A stretch of 64,000 nucleotides of DNA from contig DATCTV010000034.1 in NCBI GenBank assembly GCA_036567785.1, positions 290,468 through 354,467 of the forward strand, read 5' to 3'. Origin of the DNA: Desulfomonilia bacterium. Its GTDB lineage: Bacteria; Desulfobacterota; Desulfomonilia; UBA1062. The position numbers were made by a program, and so were the translations under genes. Below, in pieces: positions 50,457 through 64,000 of the stretch (position 1 is the stretch's first letter; the number at the start of each line of letters is the position of its first letter). Under the pieces are notes generated by a model, which was not told where the DNA came from, did no database searches, and worked only from the letters and a program-made list of their open reading frames with translations.

Positions 50457-51344
50457 ATGGAGATCAGTCCCGCATTTGTCGGAACCCGCCTGAAAGATTA
50501 CAGGTGTGTCATTACATGGCGGCAGAGCATGAACTATGCAGCGGCCGTTAATGATATCAACCCGTGGTATTTCAACGATGAGAGCCCCTGCGGCGTCATA
50601 GCACCGCCCATGCAGGCCGTGGCGGTCACCTGGCCTGTTCTGGAGCATATCAAAGATTATCTTCCTGATGACGGATTCCCGATGGAAACGCTCCTTACAC
50701 AGGTGCATTATTCTGAACACCTTCAGTTTCACAGGCCGATAAGGCCCTGCGATGAGCTTACGATAAAAGGCCGGATTGCGGCCATCGTTCCTCACAGGGC
50801 AGGGACGCATGCGGTAATCCGTCTGGATGCATTCGACTCCTCAGGGGCTCCGGTCTTCACGGAACATAACGGGGGCATGCTGAGGGGTGTGAAATGCGGC
50901 GGCACGGGGCGCGGGGAGGTTGACCTTCCTGTTGCACCTTTGCCGCTTTCCGCAGGGGATGAAATATGGAAGGCGGGCATACATATCGATCATCTCGCCC
51001 CCTTTCTTTATGACGGGTGCACCGGCATTTTTTTCCCTATCCATACGTCGGTGAAGTTCGCCCATACCGTGGGACTTCCGGGGATTATCCTTCAGGGTAC
51101 GGCCACCTTGGCCTTTGCCGCGCGTGAGATAATAAACCGTGAAGCCGGGGCCGACCCGAGGCGCCTGAAGACGCTCTCATGCAGATTCAGCGGCATGGTT
51201 CTTCCCGGCGAGGACATCTCGGTCAATCTTCTGGAACGGAGGCTCGATTCCGGAGGCATGGATTTATTCTTCGATGTGGGGAACGCTTCAGGCGGCAAGG
51301 CCATCAAAAAAGGCTATGCCAGGATAGAAGATATTAATGACTAG
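50457..51344 (+). CDS. double-hotdog (MaoC-like) protein
   Basis: A 295-residue protein with two hotdog folds, like hydratase-2 (MaoC) proteins acting on acyl-CoA. The first half contains YAAAVNDINPWYFND near residues 23-37, HYSEHLQFHRPIRPCDEL near residues 83-100, and TIKGRIAAIVPHRAG. The second half carries HTSVKFAHTVGLPGIILQGT near residues 199-218, the region that normally carries the catalytic Asp-His pair of R-specific enoyl-CoA hydratases. Here the expected acidic residue is not clear, so catalysis is uncertain. AGGAGG precedes the ATG. It is transcribed divergently from the TetR-VOC-SDR-DUF362 unit and its stop overlaps the end of the activase gene by three bases. Confidence 0.8.
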   Translation: MEISPAFVGTRLKDYRCVITWRQSMNYAAAVNDINPWYFNDESPCGVIAPPMQAVAVTWPVLEHIKDYLPDDGFPMETLLTQVHYSEHLQFHRPIRPCDELTIKGRIAAIVPHRAGTHAVIRLDAFDSSGAPVFTEHNGGMLRGVKCGGTGRGEVDLPVAPLPLSAGDEIWKAGIHIDHLAPFLYDGCTGIFFPIHTSVKFAHTVGLPGIILQGTATLAFAAREIINREAGADPRRLKTLSCRFSGMVLPGEDISVNLLERRLDSGGMDLFFDVGNASGGKAIKKGYARIEDIND

Positions 51345-52237
51345 AATACGTTTATCTCAAAGCCTTTGAAGATTTCTTTTATATGCCCTTTTTCGCCCGG
51401 GTCCATCCATGTCCTGCGCCCGTATTCGGGTTTCAACCCCAGTGCATCAAGCTTGGAAAGCCACAGCGGGTTGTAGGGCAGGAGCTCCACCTTGTTCAAC
51501 GACAGACCCGATAGATAGTCGCGCAGAGCGGTCAGGTTTTCGTCTGTTGTCGTGATTCCAGGCACCAGGGGTATGCGCGGCAGCAGCTCAACTTTTTTTT
51601 CAGCGAGCAGTGCCTCGAAATTGGCCAGTATCGCTTTATTTCCTATGCCGCAGAAACGTGCATGTTCTGAAGCGTCGAAGAGCTTGAGGTCGAAATATAC
51701 GATATCTAGGAATGGCAGGATAGATTCTTCGAATGAATGCCTGTCATACTGCCCGCATGTTTCCATGCAGACGTTTATGCCCTGCTCTTTCAAGAGGGGC
51801 AGAAGCCGTCTGAGATAGGCAGGGTGCATGCCCGGCTCGCCGCCCGAGAGTGTGACGCCGCCGCCCGTGTTGCGGTAGAAGACGGCGTCCTTGGCGAGGA
51901 TATTCACAAGCTCCTCCTCTTTATATGTCCTGCCTGCGAAAGCAAGCGCCTCTTCGGGACAGGCCCGCACGCATGCGCCGCACATGGTGCACCGCGAGCG
52001 ATCAAAAGGATAACCTCCCGCCGTGAAATTGAGCGCATTCTCCTTGCAGGCCTTTCTGCATTCTCCACAACCCTGGCATTTTTCCTGCTTGTAGATTATC
52101 TCCTGCGCTGGTGTTTTAGTTTCCGGGTTCTGGCACCACACGCAATTCAAGGGACAGCCCTTGAAGAATACGAGCGTACGGATACCCGGACCGTCGTCCA
52201 GCGAGTTTCTCTTGATGTCGGCTATCAGAGTATTCAT
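51341..52237 (-). CDS. glycyl radical enzyme activating protein (radical SAM activase)
   Basis: A 298-residue radical SAM activase that abstracts the glycine hydrogen of its partner enzyme. The SAM cluster motif CPLNCVWCQNPE starts near residue 30. An insertion with two ferredoxin motifs follows (CQGCGECRKAC near residues 55-65 and CTMCGACVRAC near residues 84-94), the larger type that accompanies dehydratases, decarboxylases and alkylsuccinate synthases rather than classical PFL-AE. SGGEPGMHP and VYFDLKLFD continue the barrel. It starts 10 bp after the glycyl radical enzyme stop, without a clear ribosome site, so it is coupled to it. Confidence 0.93.
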   Translation of the reverse strand: MNTLIADIKRNSLDDGPGIRTLVFFKGCPLNCVWCQNPETKTPAQEIIYKQEKCQGCGECRKACKENALNFTAGGYPFDRSRCTMCGACVRACPEEALAFAGRTYKEEELVNILAKDAVFYRNTGGGVTLSGGEPGMHPAYLRRLLPLLKEQGINVCMETCGQYDRHSFEESILPFLDIVYFDLKLFDASEHARFCGIGNKAILANFEALLAEKKVELLPRIPLVPGITTTDENLTALRDYLSGLSLNKVELLPYNPLWLSKLDALGLKPEYGRRTWMDPGEKGHIKEIFKGFEINVF

Positions 52238-52247
52238 GGCGCGCCCG

Positions 52248-55202
52248 TTAGCGGCAGGCGAATTCAGCCCTTTCTATGAGCTCTTCCTGCATATTTCGGT
52301 TCAGTTTGACGAAATATGCGTTATAGCCCGAGATGCGCACGATGAGCCAGCGGTATTCGTCCGGGTTCGCCATTGCGTCACGCATGGTGTCCGAGCTTAT
52401 CATGTTGCATTGCCACTGCATGCCGCCCAGGTCGAAATAGCTCTGGACATAGCCTGAGAAGATATCGAGCGTCCTTCCATGCGAATCTCCGGGATGCGGA
52501 ACGAGCTTCACGTTGAATGAGAGGTTATTGGGCATCTTGAAGTTGTCGAGTGCGGCTACTGTCCGGATGTTTTCGAGCAGGTTGTCTGAAGAGCCGGGTG
52601 CAGGCGTAAGTCCGGGCGTGAAAGCCTTTCCCTTCTTCCTGCCCGAAGGAAGCGCCCCCGAGAGCATGCCGAAACCCACGTGATAGCTGTTCGACCAGTA
52701 TCCCGGCCAGTATACACCGCCTCTGTAATTCTTCTGCGCCGTGAAGTAGTCGTAGCAGAAATCCATGATGTCGTGGGCCATGGCGATCGGTTCTTCCTCG
52801 CCCGAACCGAACTTGGGGACACGACCGATCATCCTCTCGACGTCCTCGAATCCCGCGAAATCCGCGGCAAGTGCATCCAGCAGCGTTGAGAAGTCGATTT
52901 TTTTCTGTTTGTAAATGAGATTCTTAATGACCATGAGGCTGTCAATGACATCGGATATCGATACGAGCGCGACACCGGAGGTGTTATACTTTGCCCCGCC
53001 GAAGATTATATCGCATCCCTTTTCCATGGTGCCGTCCATCATTGCTGAAAGCAGCGGGGTGGGGTGCTGTTCCTGGTGTGCGCAGCCCATGTAGTTGTTT
53101 ATCTCGACAGAGAGTTCCATTAGATATTTAAGCTGAGTCTTGTATGCGGCAAGGAAGTCTTCAAATTCGGGAAAAGCGTAGCGGGCGTCGCCCGTTTCAG
53201 GTCCTATTTTCTCTCCCATTACCGGATGCACGCCATTGTTTAGCGCCATTTCAAGAGGCGCTACGAGGTTCAGCATCATGCAGTTGGTATGTCCGTAGTG
53301 GCGGCCGGTGATGGTGGGTTCGACGCACCCGGTGGCCGACCAGTCACGCGCATCCGCAAGCGGGATGCCCTCGTTGACGAGAACTTCAATCATGGCCTTG
53401 TCGTTCTGAATGATCGGGCTTGCCGCCATATTGAGGTTAACCTCGCAAAGCCTTCTCAAGTATTCCTTTGAATTAACGCCGGGATAATACTTGGCGTTCA
53501 TGTTGGGGTCCTGGAAGCAAAGCATTTCCGCCGCCTTCAGAATGATATAGGTCATATCGTTGACCGCGTTGTTTCCTTCGCTGTCGATGCCGCCCACTGT
53601 TACCGTGTCATCTGAAGATGTGCCGCCGAAGAGTTTGTTGCCTGTGCTTGGTACGAGCGGGTCATGATCGTTGAACCTCATGAAAAGACTGGCCACCAGC
53701 TCTATCGTCTTCTTGACTATGGCCCTGCGTTCGTCATCCGTGGCCGCTTTTGCTATGTCCTTCATGAAGAAGGGCTGCAGGAGCTGGTCAAGTCTGCCTA
53801 TGGAGAGCGCGGAGTTGGCGTTTTCAATCTGCAGGCAGGTAAAGCATATCCAGATGGATATGATCGCCTCATAAACGCTTTCCGCAGGACCTGCAGGGAC
53901 CTTGGCGCATATGCGCGCCATCTCGGTGAGTTCTGTAATGCGTTCAGCCTGGGCGGGATCTTCGGGGTTGAGTGTCGAAGCCAGCAACATTGCCTCGCGG
54001 CTTAGATGCTGCGCATAACAGAGAACACCGTCGATGGATACCTGTACCGCCTGGTAGAAGTTCTTCTTGTCATGGGTATGCGCCTTGGTTTCCTTTTCGT
54101 AGGCCTTATCACGGATCGAAATCAGGCCCTCGTTGATGGCGGTCTTGAAGTCAGGAACGGTATGCGAGATGGCATTGTTCTTCATCATGAAATAGAGCAC
54201 GAAGCGTTCTTCAAGCTGCTGTGAAAGCGGGTTTCCGAAGCGTTTGCGTGTGTGCTCGCGTATGTTGCGCTCGGCCCAGAATGGAAAGACCTCCCGGTTG
54301 AGAATATCGGCCTCTTCCGGCGTCAGGTCGCAGGGGTTGAGATCGCGGGTGCTTATGCTCTTGAGTTCGGGCCAGATAAGGGTGCCAATGAACTCGGGAT
54401 ATATGGGTACGCCCACCTCCTTGGACGTGGTGGACCCAGGTATAAGATGACGTTCATGTATAATGGGACGTTTGTTCTCCATGCAGTAGCGCATGGCATG
54501 GGCCTGTCGCAGGTTGGCGTCGAAGACGGCTCCGCTTGAGGTGTGCTCGAAACCATATTCGCGGTGGTAGCGTGTGAGAAGCTGCGCCCTCTCGACACAA
54601 AGCGCCGGTTTCATGGCGAAGCGCCTGTTCTTAAGATATTTGAGCCTCGGGAAATCCTCCAGCGTGTATTCTTCCAGGTATGGATCGTCGAGTACCTGTA
54701 CTGTGTCCACCTTGCGTCCAAGCTTCTCGTTTACCATCCTGCGGCGCTTTGCACCCTTGTCGATATCCACGACTTCCCGCATCGACGGAACAATATTCTT
54801 TTTTTTGCCGCCTCCCGCGATAAGCGTCGAGAGATAGGAAAATTTTGTTAGGTAGGACATGTTCCCTGTGGAGGACATTTCGTTCGTGAGCAGATAGTCT
54901 ATGGATTCCTCAGGGTTCTTTGCAAACAGGCGGGCCAGTGTTTCCTTGTCGCGGTAGGCGATTATCGTATCAGGATTTTCTATAATACCTGTACCCGTAC
55001 GCACTTTCCCGTTGTCAAAGATCATGTAAACATGGACTTTTTCATCACGCGTCTTGAACTGGAAGCGGGCGTTGAATATGCAGCCGGTTTCAGTGTTGTA
55101 TATCTCACGCCTGAATCTGGGGACGGTGGAAAATATGGCCGCCAGGGCCTTTAGGGACATTTTGAATGCAAACACCGACGCATCGGTACGGAACTTGTTC
55201 AT
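52248..55202 (-). CDS. glycyl radical enzyme with N-terminal SCP2-like domain
   Basis: A 984-residue glycyl radical enzyme. The PFL-type core spans about residues 180-984, with the thiyl cysteine in TGCVEPT (Cys626, Glu628) and the glycyl radical loop VRISGYNAYF (Gly959). Ahead of it, residues ~35-130 resemble the SCP2 sterol-carrier fold (HVYMIFDNGKVRTG, PDTIIAYRDKETLARLF, SSTGNMSYLTKF), an addition not found in known PFL, dehydratase or benzylsuccinate-synthase enzymes. Diol dehydratases have an Asp 14 residues after the thiyl Cys; here it is Asn640, so a simple diol dehydratase is unlikely. Expression is likely controlled by the TetR gene 45 bp upstream, and the activase gene follows. AAGGAGGG precedes the ATG. 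A hydrophobic or lipid-like substrate is inferred. Confidence 0.9.
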   Translation of the reverse strand: MNKFRTDASVFAFKMSLKALAAIFSTVPRFRREIYNTETGCIFNARFQFKTRDEKVHVYMIFDNGKVRTGTGIIENPDTIIAYRDKETLARLFAKNPEESIDYLLTNEMSSTGNMSYLTKFSYLSTLIAGGGKKKNIVPSMREVVDIDKGAKRRRMVNEKLGRKVDTVQVLDDPYLEEYTLEDFPRLKYLKNRRFAMKPALCVERAQLLTRYHREYGFEHTSSGAVFDANLRQAHAMRYCMENKRPIIHERHLIPGSTTSKEVGVPIYPEFIGTLIWPELKSISTRDLNPCDLTPEEADILNREVFPFWAERNIREHTRKRFGNPLSQQLEERFVLYFMMKNNAISHTVPDFKTAINEGLISIRDKAYEKETKAHTHDKKNFYQAVQVSIDGVLCYAQHLSREAMLLASTLNPEDPAQAERITELTEMARICAKVPAGPAESVYEAIISIWICFTCLQIENANSALSIGRLDQLLQPFFMKDIAKAATDDERRAIVKKTIELVASLFMRFNDHDPLVPSTGNKLFGGTSSDDTVTVGGIDSEGNNAVNDMTYIILKAAEMLCFQDPNMNAKYYPGVNSKEYLRRLCEVNLNMAASPIIQNDKAMIEVLVNEGIPLADARDWSATGCVEPTITGRHYGHTNCMMLNLVAPLEMALNNGVHPVMGEKIGPETGDARYAFPEFEDFLAAYKTQLKYLMELSVEINNYMGCAHQEQHPTPLLSAMMDGTMEKGCDIIFGGAKYNTSGVALVSISDVIDSLMVIKNLIYKQKKIDFSTLLDALAADFAGFEDVERMIGRVPKFGSGEEEPIAMAHDIMDFCYDYFTAQKNYRGGVYWPGYWSNSYHVGFGMLSGALPSGRKKGKAFTPGLTPAPGSSDNLLENIRTVAALDNFKMPNNLSFNVKLVPHPGDSHGRTLDIFSGYVQSYFDLGGMQWQCNMISSDTMRDAMANPDEYRWLIVRISGYNAYFVKLNRNMQEELIERAEFACR

Positions 55203-56562: not shown

Positions 56563-57159
56563 TTACCCGTTCATCCCCTTGAATATGAGACTGAAAAACT
56601 GATCTGCGATATGTTCGATACCGGGCAGCCGCTTTCTTTTGTGGTTAAGGACAAAGTAATAATAAACGACCCTCAAAAGCGCGCCGATTATCATGTTGGC
56701 TATGATTTCGGTATCCAGGTCTTTGTTGACGAAGCCGGCATCCACACCCTTCTGAAGGTCTTCGACGACATACCTGACCATCTTGCGTTCGAAGATGTCG
56801 ACAAATGAGACGTGCAGTTCGTTCACGCTTGGGCCGATCTTCAGGTAGAGGTTGCAGAGGTCTTCATGCTCCTTGAAGAACTTGAGGCTGCGGGCAACAA
56901 GGGCCTTGTAGTATCCAAGAATATCTTTTTGCGCGAGTTCGGATAATGGAACCTGGGCCGCCTGCTCCCACTCATCGAGAAATTTTACAAGGATGGAAAT
57001 GAAGAGTTCCTCCTTGTTCTTGAAATAAAGGTAGAAGGTTCCTTTGCCTATCCGGGCTTCTTTCAGGATGGTTTCAACATGGGTATTGTAATAGCCGTTT
57101 TTTGCGAACAGTTTTGTGGCGCATGTAATGATCTGGTTTTTTCGTAATTCAGCCTTCAT
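56563..57159 (-). CDS. TetR family regulator of the Fe-S/GMC unit
   Basis: A 198-residue TetR repressor distinct from the other two. The HTH is near residues 25-45 (VETILKEARIGKGTFYLYF), a well-conserved TetR pattern. The effector domain is helical, with ARSLKFFKEHEDLCNLYLK. The start at 57159 has AAGG upstream and removes 15 atypical residues from a longer alternative at 57204. It faces the Fe-S protein gene across a 162-bp region holding an 18-bp perfect palindrome (57252-57269), so it probably represses that pair and itself. Confidence 0.9.
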   Translation of the reverse strand: MKAELRKNQIITCATKLFAKNGYYNTHVETILKEARIGKGTFYLYFKNKEELFISILVKFLDEWEQAAQVPLSELAQKDILGYYKALVARSLKFFKEHEDLCNLYLKIGPSVNELHVSFVDIFERKMVRYVVEDLQKGVDAGFVNKDLDTEIIANMIIGALLRVVYYYFVLNHKRKRLPGIEHIADQFFSLIFKGMNG

Positions 57160-57251
57160 CGACCTTGTTCCGCCATTTAAAGCCCCTTGTCCAATGTAAG
57201 CCATGATTTGCTTGACTTCGACTTTTATCAGCGTATAAATTAAATTATACA

Positions 57252-57269
57252 GACCTGACGCGTCAGGTC
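57252..57269. promoter_or_regulatory. TetR operator, 18-bp perfect palindrome
   Basis: GACCTGACG-CGTCAGGTC, an uninterrupted palindrome midway between the divergent TetR and Fe-S genes, the classical arrangement for a TetR operator. It differs in sequence from the GTTAC-type sites of the other two regulators. Confidence 0.7.
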
Positions 57270-57321
57270 AATTAATTTATAATATCTATTTGATAATTTC
57301 AAAATGGGATGGAGGGTACAT

Positions 57322-58233
57322 GTGAAAGAATCCACAAAAATCATGATGAAAAATCACGGATGGCGGTTTGACAGGTTTATCCATAACTATATCTATTTCG
57401 TATTCTACCGCCCTTATGTGATATTTGTCCTATGGCTGTTTCGTGTCCTTTCCTGGAGTCTGTCATGGTTCAAGCCATTCAACAGCATACTGTCCATGGC
57501 TTTTGCAAGGTATCATGCAAAGTTTTTGAGCATGAATGATGCCACAAAGATATTCACTCTCAACGAAGATGTTGTTGCCACTTCTGAAGAAAACAAGCGC
57601 ATTGTTCCCTATGACTATGCCTACAAGATTGTCCTTAAAGATGCCGACTGCGTAGCAGTCATGGATTGCCCGTGCATCGTGGCAAAGAAAGGCCGGGATA
57701 ATCTTGGCGACTGCGGCCCTATAAACCGGTGTTTTGCTGTAGGAAGGAATCTGGCCACCTTCTGGGTTGACCACTGTCAGAAGTACAATGCACACTTTAT
57801 TTCCCAGGCGGAGGCCATCGGTCTCATAAAAGATTTTCGTAAACGAGGACATATTACGCAGGCCTTTTTCAAGGTGGCCACAGGCGGACGCACGGGCATT
57901 TTCTGCAACTGCTGTCCCGAGTGTTGCGTGAGTCTTGAGGCAACCAAACTGGCGAAAAAATTTAACTCCAGCCTTTCCATGGCCGCACAATCAGGATACT
58001 CGGTCGAGCATGACAGCAAAAAATGCAGGAATTGCGGAACATGCGCCAAAATATGTCATTTCAGCGCAATCGATTTCAGGGACGGTCATCGCGGGTTTTA
58101 CAGCAGATGGAATTGCATGGGGTGCGGCCTATGCACTGAACATTGTCCGACCGGAGCACTGAAGCTCTATGTGGATAGCGACAAGCCGGTGCCGCTCGAT
58201 ATCGACCTGGTCAAGGAACAGTATGCCGATTAG
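57322..58233 (+). CDS. membrane-associated iron-sulfur protein, partner of the GMC oxidoreductase
   Basis: A 303-residue Fe-S protein starting at GTG, with GGAGGG six bases upstream; an in-frame ATG 18 bases earlier has no such box. The N-terminus carries a hydrophobic stretch (YRPYVIFVLWLFRVLSW, about residues 27-45) that could anchor it in the membrane. The middle has a dense Cys region with CPC, a DCGPINRC segment about 23 residues on, and CNCCPECC. The C-terminal ferredoxin domain has CRNCGTCAKIC and CMGCGLCTEHC. It is followed 67 bp later by the GMC-type flavoprotein. It probably takes electrons from that enzyme to a membrane carrier or ferredoxin; the pair is under the adjacent TetR. 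Confidence 0.82.
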   Translation: MKESTKIMMKNHGWRFDRFIHNYIYFVFYRPYVIFVLWLFRVLSWSLSWFKPFNSILSMAFARYHAKFLSMNDATKIFTLNEDVVATSEENKRIVPYDYAYKIVLKDADCVAVMDCPCIVAKKGRDNLGDCGPINRCFAVGRNLATFWVDHCQKYNAHFISQAEAIGLIKDFRKRGHITQAFFKVATGGRTGIFCNCCPECCVSLEATKLAKKFNSSLSMAAQSGYSVEHDSKKCRNCGTCAKICHFSAIDFRDGHRGFYSRWNCMGCGLCTEHCPTGALKLYVDSDKPVPLDIDLVKEQYAD

Positions 58234-58300
58234 GAAGCCATCCGGCATGGATGGCTGAACCGAATAAATAGTTGAAACCTTTAAAATGGAGGACATATCA

Positions 58301-59608
58301 ATGCACAAAGAGTATGACGTTATCGTTGCAGGGTCAGGCCCGGGAGGCGCCACGGTTGCACGCGAGATGAGCAGGCGCAATAAAAAAGTCCTGCTGATAG
58401 AACGCGGAGGCAACTGGCAGGCGCTTGGAAACACCCTGTCAATCGCCATGATAATGCAATGGGTTCCATTGATCTTCAGCAAACAGGCCAGTGTTGTTAT
58501 GGCCGCTTCCAACTATGGAGGGGCCTCTCTGATCTCCTGTGGGGCAGCAGTTGCACCTCCCAGAAAGGTATTTGATAAAGTGGGGATCGATCTTTCCGCC
58601 GAGGCCGCAGAAGCCAAAAACGAGATGTGGATCAACACGCTGCCAGATGTGCTTGTAGGCGGCACAAATATGCGCCTGCTCGAAGCGGCCAACGACCTGG
58701 GATTTAATTGGACAAAGACCGAACGCTTCGTGGACTCAAACCGCTGCGTGCCGGGCTGCGCCGATTGCATGCTCGGCTGTCCGCGCGGGGCGAAGTGGTC
58801 ATCCCGCATCTTCGGGGATGATGCCCTCAGGCATGGGGCGGAGCTTCTTCTCAACACCCGCGTCGATAACATAATCAGGGAGAACGGCAAGGCAGTAGGC
58901 GTTGAAGCCAGCCACTTTGGCCGTAAAGTGAAATATTTCGGCAAAAAGATCATATTGTCCGGCGGTGTGTCCAATGTCGGCATCTTAAGGCGTGCGGGCA
59001 TCAGCGAAGCAGGCAGGAGCTTTGCCGTGGACTGGCTGCAGTTCATCGGCGGTGTAATCCCTGGGATGAATACGGTTCATGATCAGCCTATGGCCGTGGG
59101 CACTATGGAGCATTACGAATCAGACGGAATAATAATACTGCCGGTCTTCCCCAACTGGTCAATGCTGGCTGCCATGCTTTCGCTCAAAGGCCCGCAGGCC
59201 CTGCCATGGATGCGTAATGCCTTCAGATGCAGCGGCATCATGGTAAAAATACAGGATGAACTGAAAGGTGAAATATTCCCTGACAACCTCCTCTATACAT
59301 GCAGCAAGGAACCGTCCGAGCGGGACAAGAAAAGGCTCAGAAAAGGTGCGGACATAGTCCGCAAGGTTCTGGTTAAGGCCGGAGCTCCAGAAGATTCAAT
59401 CATGGAACTGAAACCTTCCGGCGCCCACCCTTCGGCGGCATGCCGCATCGGCGAGGTAGTTGATACCAACCTCATGACCCGGATAGATAATCTCTATTGC
59501 TGCGATGCGAGCGTCGTTCCCGAATCGCTGGGCCTGCCTGTGGTCTGGACTGCAGTATCACTGGGTAAAAGGCTTGCAAAGCATCTTGATCAGCAGCTGA
59601 ATATTTAA
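58301..59608 (+). CDS. GMC-type FAD oxidoreductase
   Basis: A 435-residue FAD oxidoreductase of the GMC family. The N-terminal FAD motif is VAGSGPGGATVAREM (about residues 9-23). The C-terminal GMC domain is seen in GAHPSAACRIGEVVD and CDASVVPESLGLPVVWTA, then the final FAD contact. In between is a Cys cluster CVPGCADCMLGCPRGAK (about residues 146-162), typical of GMC enzymes of anaerobes and long-chain alcohol oxidases. It oxidises an alcohol to a carbonyl; with an Fe-S partner, electrons probably leave that way rather than to oxygen. TGGAGGA precedes the ATG at 58301. Hydrophobic alcohol (fatty, sterol or terpene) substrates fit the context but are inferred. Confidence 0.85.
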   Translation: MHKEYDVIVAGSGPGGATVAREMSRRNKKVLLIERGGNWQALGNTLSIAMIMQWVPLIFSKQASVVMAASNYGGASLISCGAAVAPPRKVFDKVGIDLSAEAAEAKNEMWINTLPDVLVGGTNMRLLEAANDLGFNWTKTERFVDSNRCVPGCADCMLGCPRGAKWSSRIFGDDALRHGAELLLNTRVDNIIRENGKAVGVEASHFGRKVKYFGKKIILSGGVSNVGILRRAGISEAGRSFAVDWLQFIGGVIPGMNTVHDQPMAVGTMEHYESDGIIILPVFPNWSMLAAMLSLKGPQALPWMRNAFRCSGIMVKIQDELKGEIFPDNLLYTCSKEPSERDKKRLRKGADIVRKVLVKAGAPEDSIMELKPSGAHPSAACRIGEVVDTNLMTRIDNLYCCDASVVPESLGLPVVWTAVSLGKRLAKHLDQQLNI

Positions 59609-59621
59609 TTTAACGACTACG

Positions 59622-59678
59622 GGGATGAATATGAATATATGTTCATCCCTCAACATTTAGCAGGGCATGAGGCCTGCT
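59622..59678 (+). terminator. tandem hairpins after the GMC oxidoreductase gene
   Basis: GGGATGAA/TTCATCCC (59622-59629 with 59642-59649) is followed by AGCAGG/CCTGCT (59659-59664 with 59673-59678). Both are well formed, but only a weak T-run (ATTTAA) follows, so termination is plausible rather than certain. Confidence 0.45.
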
Positions 59679-59691
59679 GAGACTATTTAAA

Positions 59692-59859
59692 ATGAACAGC
59701 TTCGGGGTCGATTGGATCACCTCATCCGGCCATGTTGCACGGCTCGATAATGACTTGTGCAGAGACTGCAGGGTATGTGGATGTCTGACAGTTCAAGGCC
59801 GATATTCCTGTAAACGGCAAATCAAGTACGAACCGGGAAGCCTGTTTCGTCTCCGGTAA
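59692..59859 (+). pseudogene. possible ferredoxin-domain remnant
   Basis: A 55-codon ORF reading MNSFGVDWITSSGHVARLDN then DLCRDCRVCGCL. The HVARLDNDLCRDC part resembles the start of a 4Fe-4S domain (as in VARVDEELCTACG), but the last cysteines and the second motif are missing. It lies in a 1-kb stretch between the GMC gene and the linalool-dehydratase-like gene that holds no complete gene. It is most likely a decayed or truncated ferredoxin, though a small real protein cannot be excluded. Confidence 0.3.
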
Positions 59860-59978
59860 ATTCACATTACAGTGACCCGGCGGGGCGCGCAGCCTTATTC
59901 TCGATGAACGAACATTGACACGGCACAATGAGCATATGAATGCCTGAACATGCACATAACAAAGCTTTCCTGAAGCCG

Positions 59979-59992
59979 CCGGCTCCTGCCGG
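59979..59992. repeat. extragenic palindrome CCGGC-TCCT-GCCGG
   Basis: A short hairpin with the GCCGG/CCGGC core shared by the palindromes at 31824, 46767 and 60498. It lies at the end of the hypothetical minus-strand gene and has no T-run. Confidence 0.4.
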
Positions 59993-60274
59993 TCATGGAA
60001 CATCAACCTCGACAAGATTTGATTTCATCAGGTTGCCTGCAAGATCAAGCATCTTGAAATTGTAGAATACCTGTCCCGATGGTATGTTGGTCCTTGCGAA
60101 CAGCGGATCGCCGGTAGAAAGCGAAAATTCATTCCCGGTTGTCATGGTTGCCTCCCCTGGCTTTGCCGGATCGTACAGTTCATAAATCGGAGTAATTATG
60201 TCAGTTGGCAGAAGGATGACCACCTGCTTGCTTGAAAGGTCATCCAGGCTGGAGCTCTCGCAGGCCATGTCCAC
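59993..60274 (-). CDS. hypothetical protein, probably truncated
   Basis: A 93-residue minus-strand ORF starting at GTG, with GGGGAAG upstream. It contains KQVVILLPTD and a beta-rich C-terminus (NIPSGQVFYNFKMLDLAGN, then LVEVDVP), as if it were the last domain of a larger exported protein. It has no signal peptide of its own. It overlaps none of the neighbours. The family is not recognised, and it may be a remnant in a degenerate stretch. Confidence 0.4.
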   Translation of the reverse strand: MDMACESSSLDDLSSKQVVILLPTDIITPIYELYDPAKPGEATMTTGNEFSLSTGDPLFARTNIPSGQVFYNFKMLDLAGNLMKSNLVEVDVP

Positions 60275-60300
60275 TTCCCCGTAGTTAAGGAGTCAAGGAC

Positions 60301-60480
60301 TTGAAATCTGATTTAGCTTCAATTGTTTATCGGCATTCCCAGAAACAAAATTTATTATTTGCATGTAGCGGTACGGTTAAAGATGACATTATCGAGATTC
60401 AGGGCGTTCGTCGTCAGCTGATTATCAAAGAAGTATTACTTTCTGACCTAAAGCCGGAATCGCGGGAGGCTGAGAGATAA
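60301..60480 (+). CDS. possible small protein (59 residues), TTG start
   Basis: An ORF of 59 codons starting at TTG with AAGGAG about ten bases upstream. It reads LKSDLASIVYRHSQKQNL, then LFACSGTVKDDIIEIQG, a soluble mix of alpha and beta character without low complexity. No family is recognised. It could be a short real gene or a fragment; the 1-kb region around it is otherwise without complete genes. Confidence 0.3.
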   Translation: MKSDLASIVYRHSQKQNLLFACSGTVKDDIIEIQGVRRQLIIKEVLLSDLKPESREAER

Positions 60481-60497
60481 TATCTCTGAATGACCGG

Positions 60498-60517
60498 GAA
60501 CCGGCACGTGCCGGTTC
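60498..60517. repeat. 20-bp perfect palindrome GAACCGGCAC-GTGCCGGTTC
   Basis: An uninterrupted palindrome in the intergenic stretch before the linalool-dehydratase-like gene. It is the longest of the four GCCGG-core palindromes. It lies 145 bp before the gene start, so it may be an operator or an extragenic repeat. Confidence 0.55.
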
Positions 60518-60661
60518 ATTTGAAGGCGGCAGGGATCATTCTGCTGTGTTTTTCCCGGCTGAAATATGATAATCTTACCCTTCAGATGAATCTTACCTGA
60601 ATTATGATTTTTTAATTCACCGGCGGATTCGTCCGGCTGCCGGATAGCGGGGGATAAAGTT

Positions 60662-62584
60662 ATGGATAAAAGTAAGGGTTTTGCTGTCGTACTCCTGATC
60701 TTTTTTGCGGTTTCTCTCGTCTTCATTGCAGGCTGCAAAACGTTAAGGGCCCCTGTGCTGGATGAGCTTTCAATCAAAGGCGTCAGTTCCAGGACAATAA
60801 CGCTCGATGCGCCTAAACTTATTGATGCCGGCAAACCAGAGGCGTCATTGAACGCATACATAGGTTTAACCGGAGAGATCAAATGCGACGGCACGGATGT
60901 GACATCCGCAATTGAGGGCCCTGTCGATGTGCGCAAGTCCGGATACCAGTTCAAGGGGCTTGTAACCGGAATGAGCTATGACATCATCGTAGTGGCCGCG
61001 AACATCTGCGGCAGTTCGGTGAAGACTGCGGCGGGCATAACTCCGGCTACGCCGCAAGTGGACCCGGCATCGTACCCGGGAATAGACGGCGACGAGATGG
61101 GGCTTTTCAGGTGGTACCTCAATGTGGCCGACGACCCCATCGATGATTTCAGCAAGATCGAGTCGTTCGATCCTGAACAGGGAGGCCTTTCTTCATACAG
61201 ATACACCCTGGCTTTCATGACATACTTCATGACGATCGAGCAGTACCACAAGCTGCCGGCTTGTCCCGAGATTATCAGGCCAAGGATGGACAGGTTGATA
61301 CAGAAAATGATCGAAAGGCCCGTCTGGTCATACTGGGCTGAAACAAGCAAGGGAGTTCCGCCTCTTGAGCCTCTGCTCAACAAACCCTACCCTGAGGCAC
61401 ACGATCCCGTGTCGGACAGGAACATCATGTACTCCGGTCACCTGGGGCAAATGATCGCCTCCTACGAGATGCTCTACCGGGATATGAAATGGTCTCGGCC
61501 AGGCTCCATCGTCTTTAAATTCAGCGATGACGAACAGTTCGTGTACGACAACAACTCGCTTCAGAAGGTCATGCACGATCAGATGAAGAACAACTGGCAC
61601 AAAAGCATAGCCTGCGAGCCCAATGCCGTTTTTCCCGAATGCAACCAGCACCCGGTGATGTCTTTCATGCTGTACGACAGCGTGCATGGTACGAATTACG
61701 GCGAGGCCAGGAACGCATTCATGGATTTCTTCCTCCAGGCAAGGATGATAAGCCCCGTCACTCACGAGGCATGCCTCTTCTTCCTCATCAAGCAGAGGGC
61801 GACGGTCTCACAGGAATTTGCTAATTTCGGCAACATTATTTCGCTGGTGAGTGTTCCTGCGGCATGGCTTGGTCTTATAAATGTGAGGACATCAGTGGCC
61901 AACGGCTGGACCGGGACATTCATGCACGCATGGCAGCCGGAGTTCATTGAGAGACATTATCCTTTCCAGAAGGCCAGAAGAATAGTTGAACCCGACGCGA
62001 ACACAGCTTATCTCAAGACCGAAATGGTGCTGGACCAGATTGCGACCCCTTTCTTCGCCATGCTTGCGGCCGAGGTGGGAGACCTTTCGACAAGAGACAA
62101 GCTTATCGCCTGGTGCAAGGACTACTACAAGCCATCCTGGGAAAATGGCATGCTTAAATATCCGGTCTGCGAACCTGTCAACATAATCGATCCGAGGAAA
62201 AACTTCACCCCCACAAGCCAGGCCCTGACAGGGGCGCTTATCGCCTATGCAATGGCGAACAAGAAGGATGGCCAGAGAGATGTCATACAGAAGCCTTTTA
62301 CTGACAGGAACTTTACTTCACCCGAAATCACTAAAGTGGACTACCCGAATGTACTTGTAAAGCGCGCCATATACGACTTTGAAAAGGAGGCCCTCATCTT
62401 GACAACCGAAGGCGGTGCTATGACTCAAGGTTCAACAGTAATAAACATCGAAAGGCTCGACCCGCTTCGTATCTGGGATTTGATCATTGACGGACAGTAT
62501 ATCAGGAAGCTCTCCGGTGTATCGTCATTGCCCCTGGAGATAGGTCTTGACAGGAAGCATGACATAGTATTGGTGGCCGAATGA
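60662..62584 (+). CDS. linalool dehydratase/isomerase-family lipoprotein
   Basis: A 640-residue lipoprotein. The signal peptide ends with the lipobox FIAGC (Cys25), followed by an Fn3-like beta domain of about 110 residues. The C-terminal ~500 residues match linalool dehydratase/isomerase (Ldi). They carry NIMYSGHLGQM (His260), HDQM, ACEPNAVFPECN (Cys318 and Cys327, the same nine-residue spacing as the two catalytic cysteines of Castellaniella Ldi) and LYDSVHGTNYGEARNAF. Ldi hydrates or isomerises tertiary allylic alcohols such as linalool and geraniol, and is periplasmic. A GGGGGAT box precedes the ATG. It could act on terpenoid or other prenyl alcohols at the cell surface. The Fn3-like lead and lipid anchor are not in the known enzyme. 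Confidence 0.83.
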   Translation: MDKSKGFAVVLLIFFAVSLVFIAGCKTLRAPVLDELSIKGVSSRTITLDAPKLIDAGKPEASLNAYIGLTGEIKCDGTDVTSAIEGPVDVRKSGYQFKGLVTGMSYDIIVVAANICGSSVKTAAGITPATPQVDPASYPGIDGDEMGLFRWYLNVADDPIDDFSKIESFDPEQGGLSSYRYTLAFMTYFMTIEQYHKLPACPEIIRPRMDRLIQKMIERPVWSYWAETSKGVPPLEPLLNKPYPEAHDPVSDRNIMYSGHLGQMIASYEMLYRDMKWSRPGSIVFKFSDDEQFVYDNNSLQKVMHDQMKNNWHKSIACEPNAVFPECNQHPVMSFMLYDSVHGTNYGEARNAFMDFFLQARMISPVTHEACLFFLIKQRATVSQEFANFGNIISLVSVPAAWLGLINVRTSVANGWTGTFMHAWQPEFIERHYPFQKARRIVEPDANTAYLKTEMVLDQIATPFFAMLAAEVGDLSTRDKLIAWCKDYYKPSWENGMLKYPVCEPVNIIDPRKNFTPTSQALTGALIAYAMANKKDGQRDVIQKPFTDRNFTSPEITKVDYPNVLVKRAIYDFEKEALILTTEGGAMTQGSTVINIERLDPLRIWDLIIDGQYIRKLSGVSSLPLEIGLDRKHDIVLVAE

Positions 62585-62636
62585 AACGATCCTCCTTTGA
62601 GGCATAAGAGATGTCTTGTCATAACCTGTCCTTGAC

Positions 62637-63101
62637 ATGACAAATAACGACATCCTCAGACGCATCCGGTATGCCTTTGACTTGAGCGATCAGACGATGT
62701 CTGCGATCTTCGGTCTTGCCGGTTATCAGGCAGACCGGGAGCAGATCACAGGCTGGCTAAAAACAACGGATGATCCCGCATATCAGGACCTCACCGACAA
62801 AGAGCTTGCGACATTCCTGAACGGTTTCATCAATTACAAACGCGGAAAAAAGGAAGGCCCGCAGCCCGAACCCGAGCGGCGGCTGAACAACAACATCGTT
62901 TTAAGAAAACTGAAGATCGCCTTGAACCTGCAATCGGAAGAAATAATCAAGATCATGAACCTGGCCGATATGTCCGTGAGCAAAAATGAACTGAGCGCGT
63001 TTTTCCGCAGTCAGGACCACAGGCAATACCGTGAGTGCAAAGACCAGATCCTGCGCAATTTTTTAAAAGGCATTCAGCTTAAATACCGCGCAGGAAATTG
63101 A
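62637..63101 (+). CDS. yehS: DUF1456 family protein (YehS-like)
   Basis: A 154-residue protein consisting of two repeats of the DUF1456 helical motif. The first starts with NNDILRRIRYAFDLSD and the second with NNIVLRKLKIALNLQSEE near residue 84, both ending in a FLNGFI/FLKGIQ helix. It has no signal or membrane segment. E. coli YehS belongs to this family; its function is unknown, though a role in nucleic-acid or regulatory binding has been proposed for the repeat. It lies 52 bp after the Ldi-like gene with no strong ribosome site. Confidence 0.85.
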   Translation: MTNNDILRRIRYAFDLSDQTMSAIFGLAGYQADREQITGWLKTTDDPAYQDLTDKELATFLNGFINYKRGKKEGPQPEPERRLNNNIVLRKLKIALNLQSEEIIKIMNLADMSVSKNELSAFFRSQDHRQYRECKDQILRNFLKGIQLKYRAGN

Positions 63102-63164
63102 TCTGAGGCATGACACCTTTTGTCTATTTGATAACAAATTTCAGAAACAGGGGAGGAAATATCC

Positions 63165-63770
63165 ATGAAAAAGCTAAGAATATACTGGCTTGTTACAGGT
63201 TTCCTTCTGATTTTTACAGTGGCATGGGCCCATGTGCCTTATCTTGAGAAAACCGACTTTACTGCCAGTGCGCCATTTAAATGTCCGATGGCATTACAGT
63301 CGACAGCTGTATACTCATGGCTGGAAAGCGACTCGGACGTCGATTTCTACACCATTACAGCCTATACCTCCGTACCGTTATTTGCCGAAGTGATAGTGCC
63401 TGTATTTGACGTGTATGCTGATTTCCGGCCCAGCATTGCCCTTATAGGGCAGGGCCTGCCTGACCCGTGTGAACTTCTGCCCGTACCTCTCGCCCCTGGT
63501 GAAGGCGCCATAGTGCTGCACGATGCCGGCCTGGAACCCAGGCCGCAGTTCTATGAGCCGTTCGGAAACAAATCCTATTATCAGGGTCCCAGGTTTGAGA
63601 TGAACATAAAGGCCGGCAAATACAAGCTGATATACTGGGACCCGGAGGGAATGACGGGCGACTATACAGCAACGATAGGCAAATACGAAATATGGCTGCC
63701 CAAAGATATCATAAGGGCTTTCATTGTTACACCTATGATCCGTGCCGGTGAAGAGCTTCATTTGCCATGA
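63165..63770 (+). CDS. secreted protein of unknown function
   Basis: A 201-residue protein with a signal peptide (hydrophobic residues ~8-21, cleavage after VAWA) and a mature beta-rich domain containing SWLESDSDVDFYTITAY and YKLIYWDPEGMTGDYTA. The pattern resembles proteins with a bacterial pre-peptidase-like jelly-roll, but I do not recognise the family. One cysteine pair (KCPM and DPCELL) may form a disulfide in the periplasm. GGGGAGG precedes the ATG. It follows the YehS-like gene by 63 bp and may be cotranscribed. Confidence 0.7.
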   Translation: MKKLRIYWLVTGFLLIFTVAWAHVPYLEKTDFTASAPFKCPMALQSTAVYSWLESDSDVDFYTITAYTSVPLFAEVIVPVFDVYADFRPSIALIGQGLPDPCELLPVPLAPGEGAIVLHDAGLEPRPQFYEPFGNKSYYQGPRFEMNIKAGKYKLIYWDPEGMTGDYTATIGKYEIWLPKDIIRAFIVTPMIRAGEELHLP

Positions 63771-63973
63771 GAGAGCGGAAGAATCTTGCCGCTTGACTGT
63801 CTTGCAGGCGGTCAGTTATCGACAGCAGGCATCCTCCCTGCGTTCTTTATTGGAAGATCAGATCGTGAGACAGAGATGTTGATTGTTCGATAACCTCTCA
63901 TTTCAGGCCTTGAAATGGGTCAAATCCGTTAATTTATCAAGGTTCAAAGCCAGGCACATTTTCTTTTAAAGCA

Positions 63974-64000
63974 TGGCAGGCGGAATGATTCTGCCTGCCA
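63974..64000. terminator. inverted repeat at the window edge
   Basis: TGGCAGGC (63974-63981) pairs with GCCTGCCA (63993-64000), but the window stops at the base of the stem, so the presence of a T-run cannot be checked. The 200 bp before it, after the secreted protein gene, holds no gene. Confidence 0.45.

Follow-up and report, generated by a model that had tools for sequence, protein, structure and literature searches.

The linalool dehydratase/isomerase (Ldi, or LinD) of Castellaniella defragrans 65Phen (PDB 5hlr, 5i3t, and 5g1u) has been characterized as a soluble homopentamer of the periplasm, with the active site between subunits, and not as a lipoprotein. The equilibrium of its reactions lies in the direction from geraniol through linalool to myrcene, and a detoxifying function has been proposed for it (PMC6600392 and PMC4791888). 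The key residues listed in a third paper are H128, Y44, D38, C179, and C170 (PMC12455561), and the disulfide C48-C101, which caps the active site, has been called essential (PMC6600392). Thauera linaloolentis 47Lol has a membrane-anchored Ldi homologue, Lis, which is 644 aa long and carries an extra N-terminal part (PMC4791888).

Here we analyze an Ldi-family gene in a 64,000-nucleotide stretch of DNA from a Desulfomonilia bacterium; this whole stretch is called the window below. The gene lies at positions 60662..62584 on the + strand, starts with ATG, and encodes a predicted lipoprotein of 640 aa, referred to as the window copy.

Fold, domains, and anchor

The window copy belongs to the Ldi superfamily (Pfam PF18566), in a widespread branch to which little study has been given. 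The Pfam Ldi model matched its open frame with an E value of 5.7e-71 and 240 bits, compared to a cut-off of 26.1. When the PDB sequences were searched with phmmer, the best eight matches were all Ldi (3.4e-17 with the single sequence), and a five-row profile reached the Ldi chains at 1.8e-39; none of the NCBIfam models matched at an E value of 0.001. An AlphaFold model of the monomer, computed from 66 aligned sequences (alignment A2, defined below), had a pLDDT of 92.6 and a pTM of 0.89. (A model from five rows, with a pLDDT of 49.9, was poor and was set aside.) On Castellaniella Ldi (5i3t) the model superimposed with a Z of 39.6 and 2.1 Å over 334 residues, and the first ten entries in the ranking of solved structures were all Ldi (Z of 38.4 to 39.6, 2.1 to 2.2 Å, 332 to 334 residues, and 25 to 26% identity). 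The sequence identity of the window copy to Castellaniella Ldi is 84/343. A first-pass annotation of this DNA, made from the sequence, had called the protein an Ldi homologue and had proposed structural superposition as a check; both the Ldi-like barrel and the cysteine pair were found in the model, and the assignment withstood this examination.

The next structural neighbors were barrels of families GH105, GH76, and GH127, some of which also have beta domains. The protein could therefore be a glycan-active (alpha,alpha)6-barrel enzyme and not an alcohol (de)hydratase, but we regard this as very improbable: the best of these barrels, a GH105 structure and the best non-Ldi neighbor, scored a Z of 22.1 versus 38 to 40 for Ldi, and the residues conserved among the homologues match Ldi. 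Families missing from the list of structural neighbors were not counted as evidence.

From its N terminus, the protein consists of a signal peptide with a lipobox (residues 1 to 25; 60662..60736, +), an Fn3-like beta domain (about residues 29 to 130; 60746..61051, +) placed by profile matches, model, and alignment, the Ldi (alpha,alpha)6 barrel (residues 137 to 551; 61070..62314, +) delimited by the superposition on 5i3t, and a C-terminal beta domain (residues 555 to 640; 62324..62581, +) evident in the model and the alignment. The first-pass annotation had noted one extra beta domain ahead of the barrel, and residues 38 to 126 were indeed modeled confidently as all-beta. By sequence, this lead domain appears weakly Fn3-like: fibronectin chains in the PDB matched a five-sequence profile at an E value of 5e-4, and Pfam fn3 matched two of the three paralogues described below, at 0.008 and 0.018, with no match in the window copy. 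Among the 66 aligned homologues the lead is restricted to the four copies in this genome, which have 144 to 150 residues ahead of the barrel; the next longest aligned row has 73. The second beta domain, which was absent from the first-pass annotation, as were the three paralogues about 200 kb away, is common to nearly all aligned homologues, 65/66 of which extend at least 75 residues past the boundary at residue 555.

In the model, a hydrophobic helix (residues 4 to 23) leads into the lipobox IAGC at residues 22 to 25, with Cys25 as the predicted site of lipidation and Lys at +2; these features support the lipid anchor proposed in the first-pass annotation. In all four copies the signal peptide ends in GC followed by Lys, and the three paralogues, which have Pro at -2, fall outside the strict lipobox pattern. 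Counted with the strict lipobox and Tat-like patterns, 5/66 aligned homologues, the window copy among them, have the lipobox, and 6/66 have a Tat-like motif. Reading Lys at +2 by the sorting rule for E. coli lipoproteins, the window copy is probably located in the outer membrane. Processing outside the cytoplasm, as first suggested, agrees with the export signal and the predicted lipid anchor, but it is not new, because Ldi itself is periplasmic (PMC6600392) and Lis is membrane anchored (PMC4791888).

The Ldi family and its active-site residues

Ldi had been annotated as known mainly from Castellaniella, a view that does not survive a wider search. We found 75 Ldi loci in 84,980 species genomes, distributed over many phyla, and Ldi homologues on 12 of 72,556 plasmids. 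The hosts include lake-sediment deltaproteobacteria, Bacteroidales, Ignavibacteriae, Elusimicrobia, and Acidobacteria, as well as Sphingomonas, Halieaceae, Bradyrhizobium, and Streptomyces. Viral contigs were considered as carriers, and their 77 pattern matches included 0 relatives. The family was found in none of the 41 other genomes of the host's class and in one of 59 other relatives (G052), which belongs to a different family.

Alignment A2 holds 62 of the 75 loci plus the four copies from the host genome. Left out were L022, L024, L037, L038, L045, L050, L053, L068, L073, L074, L082, L084, and L086, because they were near-copies or duplicates, were partial or unusually long, or contained N; alignment A1 took in one G052 homologue (L013). 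In a maximum-likelihood tree of 67 rows, computed after residues 1 to 130 had been trimmed from the host's own sequences, the four copies form one clade (100/100) inside a 23-row clade (100/99) composed mostly of sediment metagenome-assembled genomes (MAGs). The sister clade has 13 rows (100/100), the aerobic relatives fall in other clades than that of the window copy, and Castellaniella Ldi stands far off on a long branch, its placement being unsure. Two distant homologues, L013 (9500-11299) and L083, close with a CGC-like motif, a hydrophobic segment, and a tail rich in Arg, which suggests a different, C-terminal surface anchor in those proteins.

In the alignment, C170, C179, H128, M124, and E171 of Ldi correspond to C318, C327, H260, M256, and E319 of the window copy. 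These five residues are identical in 66/66 aligned homologues, including those with identities to the window copy as low as 20 to 24%, and the host's four copies all have the complete set. The three motifs named in the first-pass annotation were located as described: CEPNAVFPEC at residues 318 to 327 (61613..61642, +), with the catalytic-type Cys318 and Cys327; NIMYxGHL, here NIMYSGHL, at residues 254 to 261 (61421..61444, +), with Met256 and His260; and HGTxY, here HGTNY, at residues 342 to 346 (61685..61699, +), which pairs with HGTDY of Ldi. The N, M, Y, and H of NIMYSGHL are invariant in all 66 aligned homologues. Twenty columns reach a conservation of 95% or more across the family, and 15 of these are identical in Castellaniella Ldi, among them C170, C179, H128, M124, Y125, E171, and N180. 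Within the barrel the figure is 15/17; of the five near-invariant columns that differ from Ldi, three fall in the C-terminal domain, which Castellaniella Ldi does not have.

Neither cysteine of the capping disulfide C48-C101 is present in the window copy: E218 stands opposite C101, and there is no Cys near C48. Cys residues up to three positions away from C48 occur in 0/66 homologues, and up to three positions away from C101 in 1/66. Asp38 is a proposed proton donor of Ldi. It pairs with A156 (by hhalign) or L153 (by MAFFT), and Tyr44 pairs with F163 or P159, respectively, all with low alignment confidence. The acids D157, D158, and D162 lie near the stretch equivalent to Asp38; the position of D162 is acidic in 58/66 rows, and D162 might stand in for Asp38. 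Because the capping disulfide is missing and Asp38 has no confident match, we do not call the window copy a linalool dehydratase/isomerase, only a member of the superfamily, and these two differences could mean that it catalyzes another reaction.

The same two differences, together with the existence of four paralogues, would also fit a noncatalytic or binding lipoprotein descended from Ldi. We consider such a protein improbable, since the catalytic set is invariant both in the four copies and in all 66 aligned homologues. Judged from sequence and model, Ldi-type chemistry in the window copy is likely.

Gene copies and gene neighbors

The host genome (3.96 Mb in 64 contigs, 97% complete) has four genes for full-length Ldi proteins. 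They share a single contig, on which a tandem of three paralogues, 58 to 63% identical to the window copy, lies about 200 kb upstream of it. The first-pass annotation had linked the window copy to neighboring genes for hydrophobic substrates, but there is no clear operon. The upstream neighbor, a GMC gene, ends 1,053 bases before the Ldi gene, and downstream the opposite strand carries the genes for FAD, amine-oxidase-like, and SDR proteins. The neighborhood of the window copy has no ABC, dehydrogenase-set, or thiol-redox genes. No Rfam families were found within 57000-64000, and scanning for promoters and terminators gave signals close to the chance level. The GC3 of the gene is 0.645 versus 0.62 to 0.67 in neighboring genes, and thus no recent foreign signature was seen. 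The interval between the GMC and Ldi genes (59609-60661) has a lower GC (0.473) and only short frames that resemble gene remnants.

Elsewhere in the window, a gene at 52248-55202 (-) encodes a glycyl radical enzyme that is PFL-like and 984 aa long, and its activase gene adjoins at 51341-52237. At its N terminus this enzyme is extended by about 185 residues, for which Pfam gave no match and the PDB none that was convincing, and it scores under every listed NCBIfam cut-off for known glycyl radical enzymes.

The triplet is followed, on the same strand, by genes for an FtsX/MacB_PCD permease and an ABC ATPase (by Pfam). A LolCDE-type lipoprotein transporter was considered here and rejected: the Pfam matches are FtsX and MacB_PCD, and the NCBIfam LolC/E scores are far under the cut-off. 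Relatives of the permease (47 to 52% identity) adjoin Ldi in L014 and L015, which are the two closest relatives; the ATPase is also present in L015 and was not found beside the permease in L014. Our reading of the role leans on the neighbors of the paralogues, not on those of the window copy itself. Upstream of the triplet and mostly on the opposite strand is an aryl polyene-like cluster (L009 9486-19140; G000 contig 34, about C34:134-144 kb), to which belong a carrier protein, an SDR/FabG-like reductase, an MMPL exporter-methyltransferase fusion, and acyltransferase-like and glycosyltransferase-like proteins; only some of these names come from Pfam, and several we assume from the look of the sequence. 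At L009 8218-9297 (-), an FMN reductase/flavodoxin-like domain is fused to an SCP2 sterol-carrier-like domain.

Neighbors were counted at 73 of the 75 loci, omitting the duplicates L068 and L086. The 17 loci of the sister clade have, near Ldi, a 430-aa protein (16 loci), HGD-D (10 loci), a BadF-type ATPase (8 loci), a CdhC-like protein (8 loci), and a CooC-like protein (8 loci), this last being our wording for a MinD/ArsA-like ATPase. Where they come nearest to Ldi, these partner genes share its strand. Among the NCBIfam models, the double-cubane reductase is the best fit to the HGD-D protein, although under its cut-off (190 versus 350 bits). The 430-aa protein belongs to a family of 430 to 490 aa (L020-L035, L038, and L050; alignment A3) that is often lipoprotein-like and is present in two or three copies at some loci. 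A CrtC/AttH-like fold was considered for it, but nothing convincing was found in PDB and Pfam, and a search of the host genome, which had no positive control, found no copy.

These associations raise the possibility that Ldi is the partner of a double-cubane-type reductase driven by ATP and, for instance, prepares an alkene for reduction. The host genome has a similar operon (L097; G000 contig 2, about 58-69 kb). Its genes, arranged like an operon, encode four HGD-D proteins, three BadF-type ATPases, a stand-alone CdhC-like protein, and a MinD/ArsA-like ATPase. It is on a different contig from the Ldi genes, however, and its CdhC-like gene has close homologues in 17/23 other genomes of the host's family, all of them without Ldi. 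Co-occurrence with Ldi is therefore uninformative, and we rejected the operon as evidence of a partnership. Among the sister loci themselves, 7/17 show no HGD-D, some of them on short contigs. We give a reductive partnership of the window copy only a slight chance.

Among the aerobic relatives the gene company is different. A DsbA-like gene lies directly downstream of Ldi, on the same strand and 6 to 225 bases away, at 12/73 loci; SCO1-like genes are present at 13/73 loci, at 9 of them within 3 kb; and a PQQ alcohol dehydrogenase gene is 57 to 106 bases from Ldi at 4 loci that are close relatives of each other. A Zn-alcohol dehydrogenase (ADH), an aldehyde dehydrogenase, and a CoA ligase occur together at 7/73 loci, which is a raw count, the latter two being common genes. 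The DsbA, SCO1, and PQQ genes, with their tight spacing, give a stronger signal than the aldehyde dehydrogenase and CoA ligase genes. Such company would fit a cysteine pair kept under redox control and a product that is an alcohol.

The dehydrogenase/CoA-ligase set beside Ldi in aerobic relatives bears on the first-pass proposal that the window copy carries out a first processing step. In catabolic form, linalool- or prenol-like compounds would be hydrated or isomerized to primary alcohols, oxidized, and passed into beta-oxidation, and growth of Castellaniella on myrcene requires ldi (PMC3490891). The proposal gained no direct support from the host genome: no adjacent set of ADH, aldehyde dehydrogenase, and CoA ligase was found at the window copy or beside any of the four copies, the aerobic relatives that have the set belong to other clades, and the whole genome gave only two matches to carboxyltransferase, both short and weak. 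By size and score, these two look like AccA and AccD, not geranyl- or methylcrotonyl-CoA carboxylase. We conclude that catabolism is unlikely.

Proposed role and relation to known enzymes

Endogenous C30/C40 terpenoids were considered as substrates and rejected. The host genome gave no match to the C-terminal domain of squalene-hopene cyclase and no match to squalene/phytoene synthase, for both of which the controls in other genomes were positive. Because neither cyclase nor synthase was matched, cell-made hopanoid, sterol, or carotenoid substrates are unlikely, and the FAD and amine-oxidase-like genes downstream of the window copy would belong outside any carotenoid pathway. The lack of matches to these two enzymes, the presence of AccA/AccD-like carboxyltransferases only, and the transporter at the triplet moderately favor detoxification over catabolism. 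That the enzyme has a protective role in its host, modifying or detoxifying compounds, remains a tentative reading to which we give somewhat less than an even chance.

The computations establish the fold, the pair of cysteines, the conservation of the motifs, the anchor motif, the number of copies, and the ABC neighbor of the triplet; the chemistry, substrate class, and location of the window copy we infer as follows. The protein would be exported by Sec and then lipidated at Cys25. The barrel would face either the periplasm or the outside, and the Fn3-like domain may serve as a spacer. In the hydrophobic barrel, the pair Cys318 and Cys327, aided by His260 and Glu319, would protonate and accept the hydroxyl group of an alcohol that is small, hydrophobic, and tertiary or allylic. 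The reaction would pass through a carbocation-like allylic state, and the outcome, as for Ldi, would be dehydration, hydration, or 1,3-hydroxyl transposition, depending on the substrate. Exogenous terpenoid-like alcohols would be modified or detoxified at the envelope, and the MacB-type transporter adjoining the triplet may move substrate or product. Taken whole, this explanation, a lipid-anchored Ldi-superfamily enzyme that acts on exogenous alcohols at the envelope, has in our judgment about an even chance of being correct.

A broader extrapolation is that some anaerobes have an envelope system in which multicopy, outer-membrane-anchored Ldi-like enzymes process tertiary or allylic alcohols, whether terpenoid or not, without oxygen. 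Next to them would stand, in one lineage, a MacB-type transporter dedicated to the system and, in the sister lineage, ATP-driven double-cubane-type reductases. Taken jointly, these elements are speculative, and we think it rather unlikely that all of them hold.

Much of what we found has precedent: the Ldi fold, the cysteine chemistry, export, and, in Lis, membrane anchoring are already known. Castellaniella Ldi shares with the window copy the barrel, the cysteine pair, His128, Met124, Glu171, and export; in contrast, it has C48-C101 and Asp38/Tyr44, and its mature form of 371 residues, which is about 25% identical to the window copy, has neither an Fn3-like nor a C-terminal beta domain. Lis, compared here by its description only, has four predicted transmembrane helices and a cytosolic Ldi domain, whereas the window copy has one signal helix and a lipobox; its model lacks the four N-terminal transmembrane helices of the Lis type and has a single helix (residues 4 to 23) followed by beta strands. 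The long homologues from anaerobic MAGs (L014, L015, L020-L029, and L031-L035) have the barrel and the C-terminal beta domain and belong to the same 23-row clade, but those aligned have no Fn3-like lead or strict lipobox. L014 and L015 share the ABC permease with the triplet, and the L020-L035 group is tied to double-cubane-type reductase genes. In a literature search that covered few subscription journals, none of the titles on linalool dehydratase/isomerase concerned lipoprotein Ldi homologues, and no paper was found on the double-cubane operon.

As far as our searches extended, the new elements are the lipid anchor, the Fn3-like lead, the C-terminal beta domain, the four copies, the ABC company, and the absence of the capping disulfide. 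Cofactor-free enzymes that hydrate unactivated alkenes or shift hydroxyls are rare and are sought for biocatalysis. A family that extends over many phyla with an invariant cysteine center and without the "essential" disulfide makes the minimal catalytic set of Ldi testable, and its genomic partners suggest both substrates and how the redox state of the cysteines is cared for.
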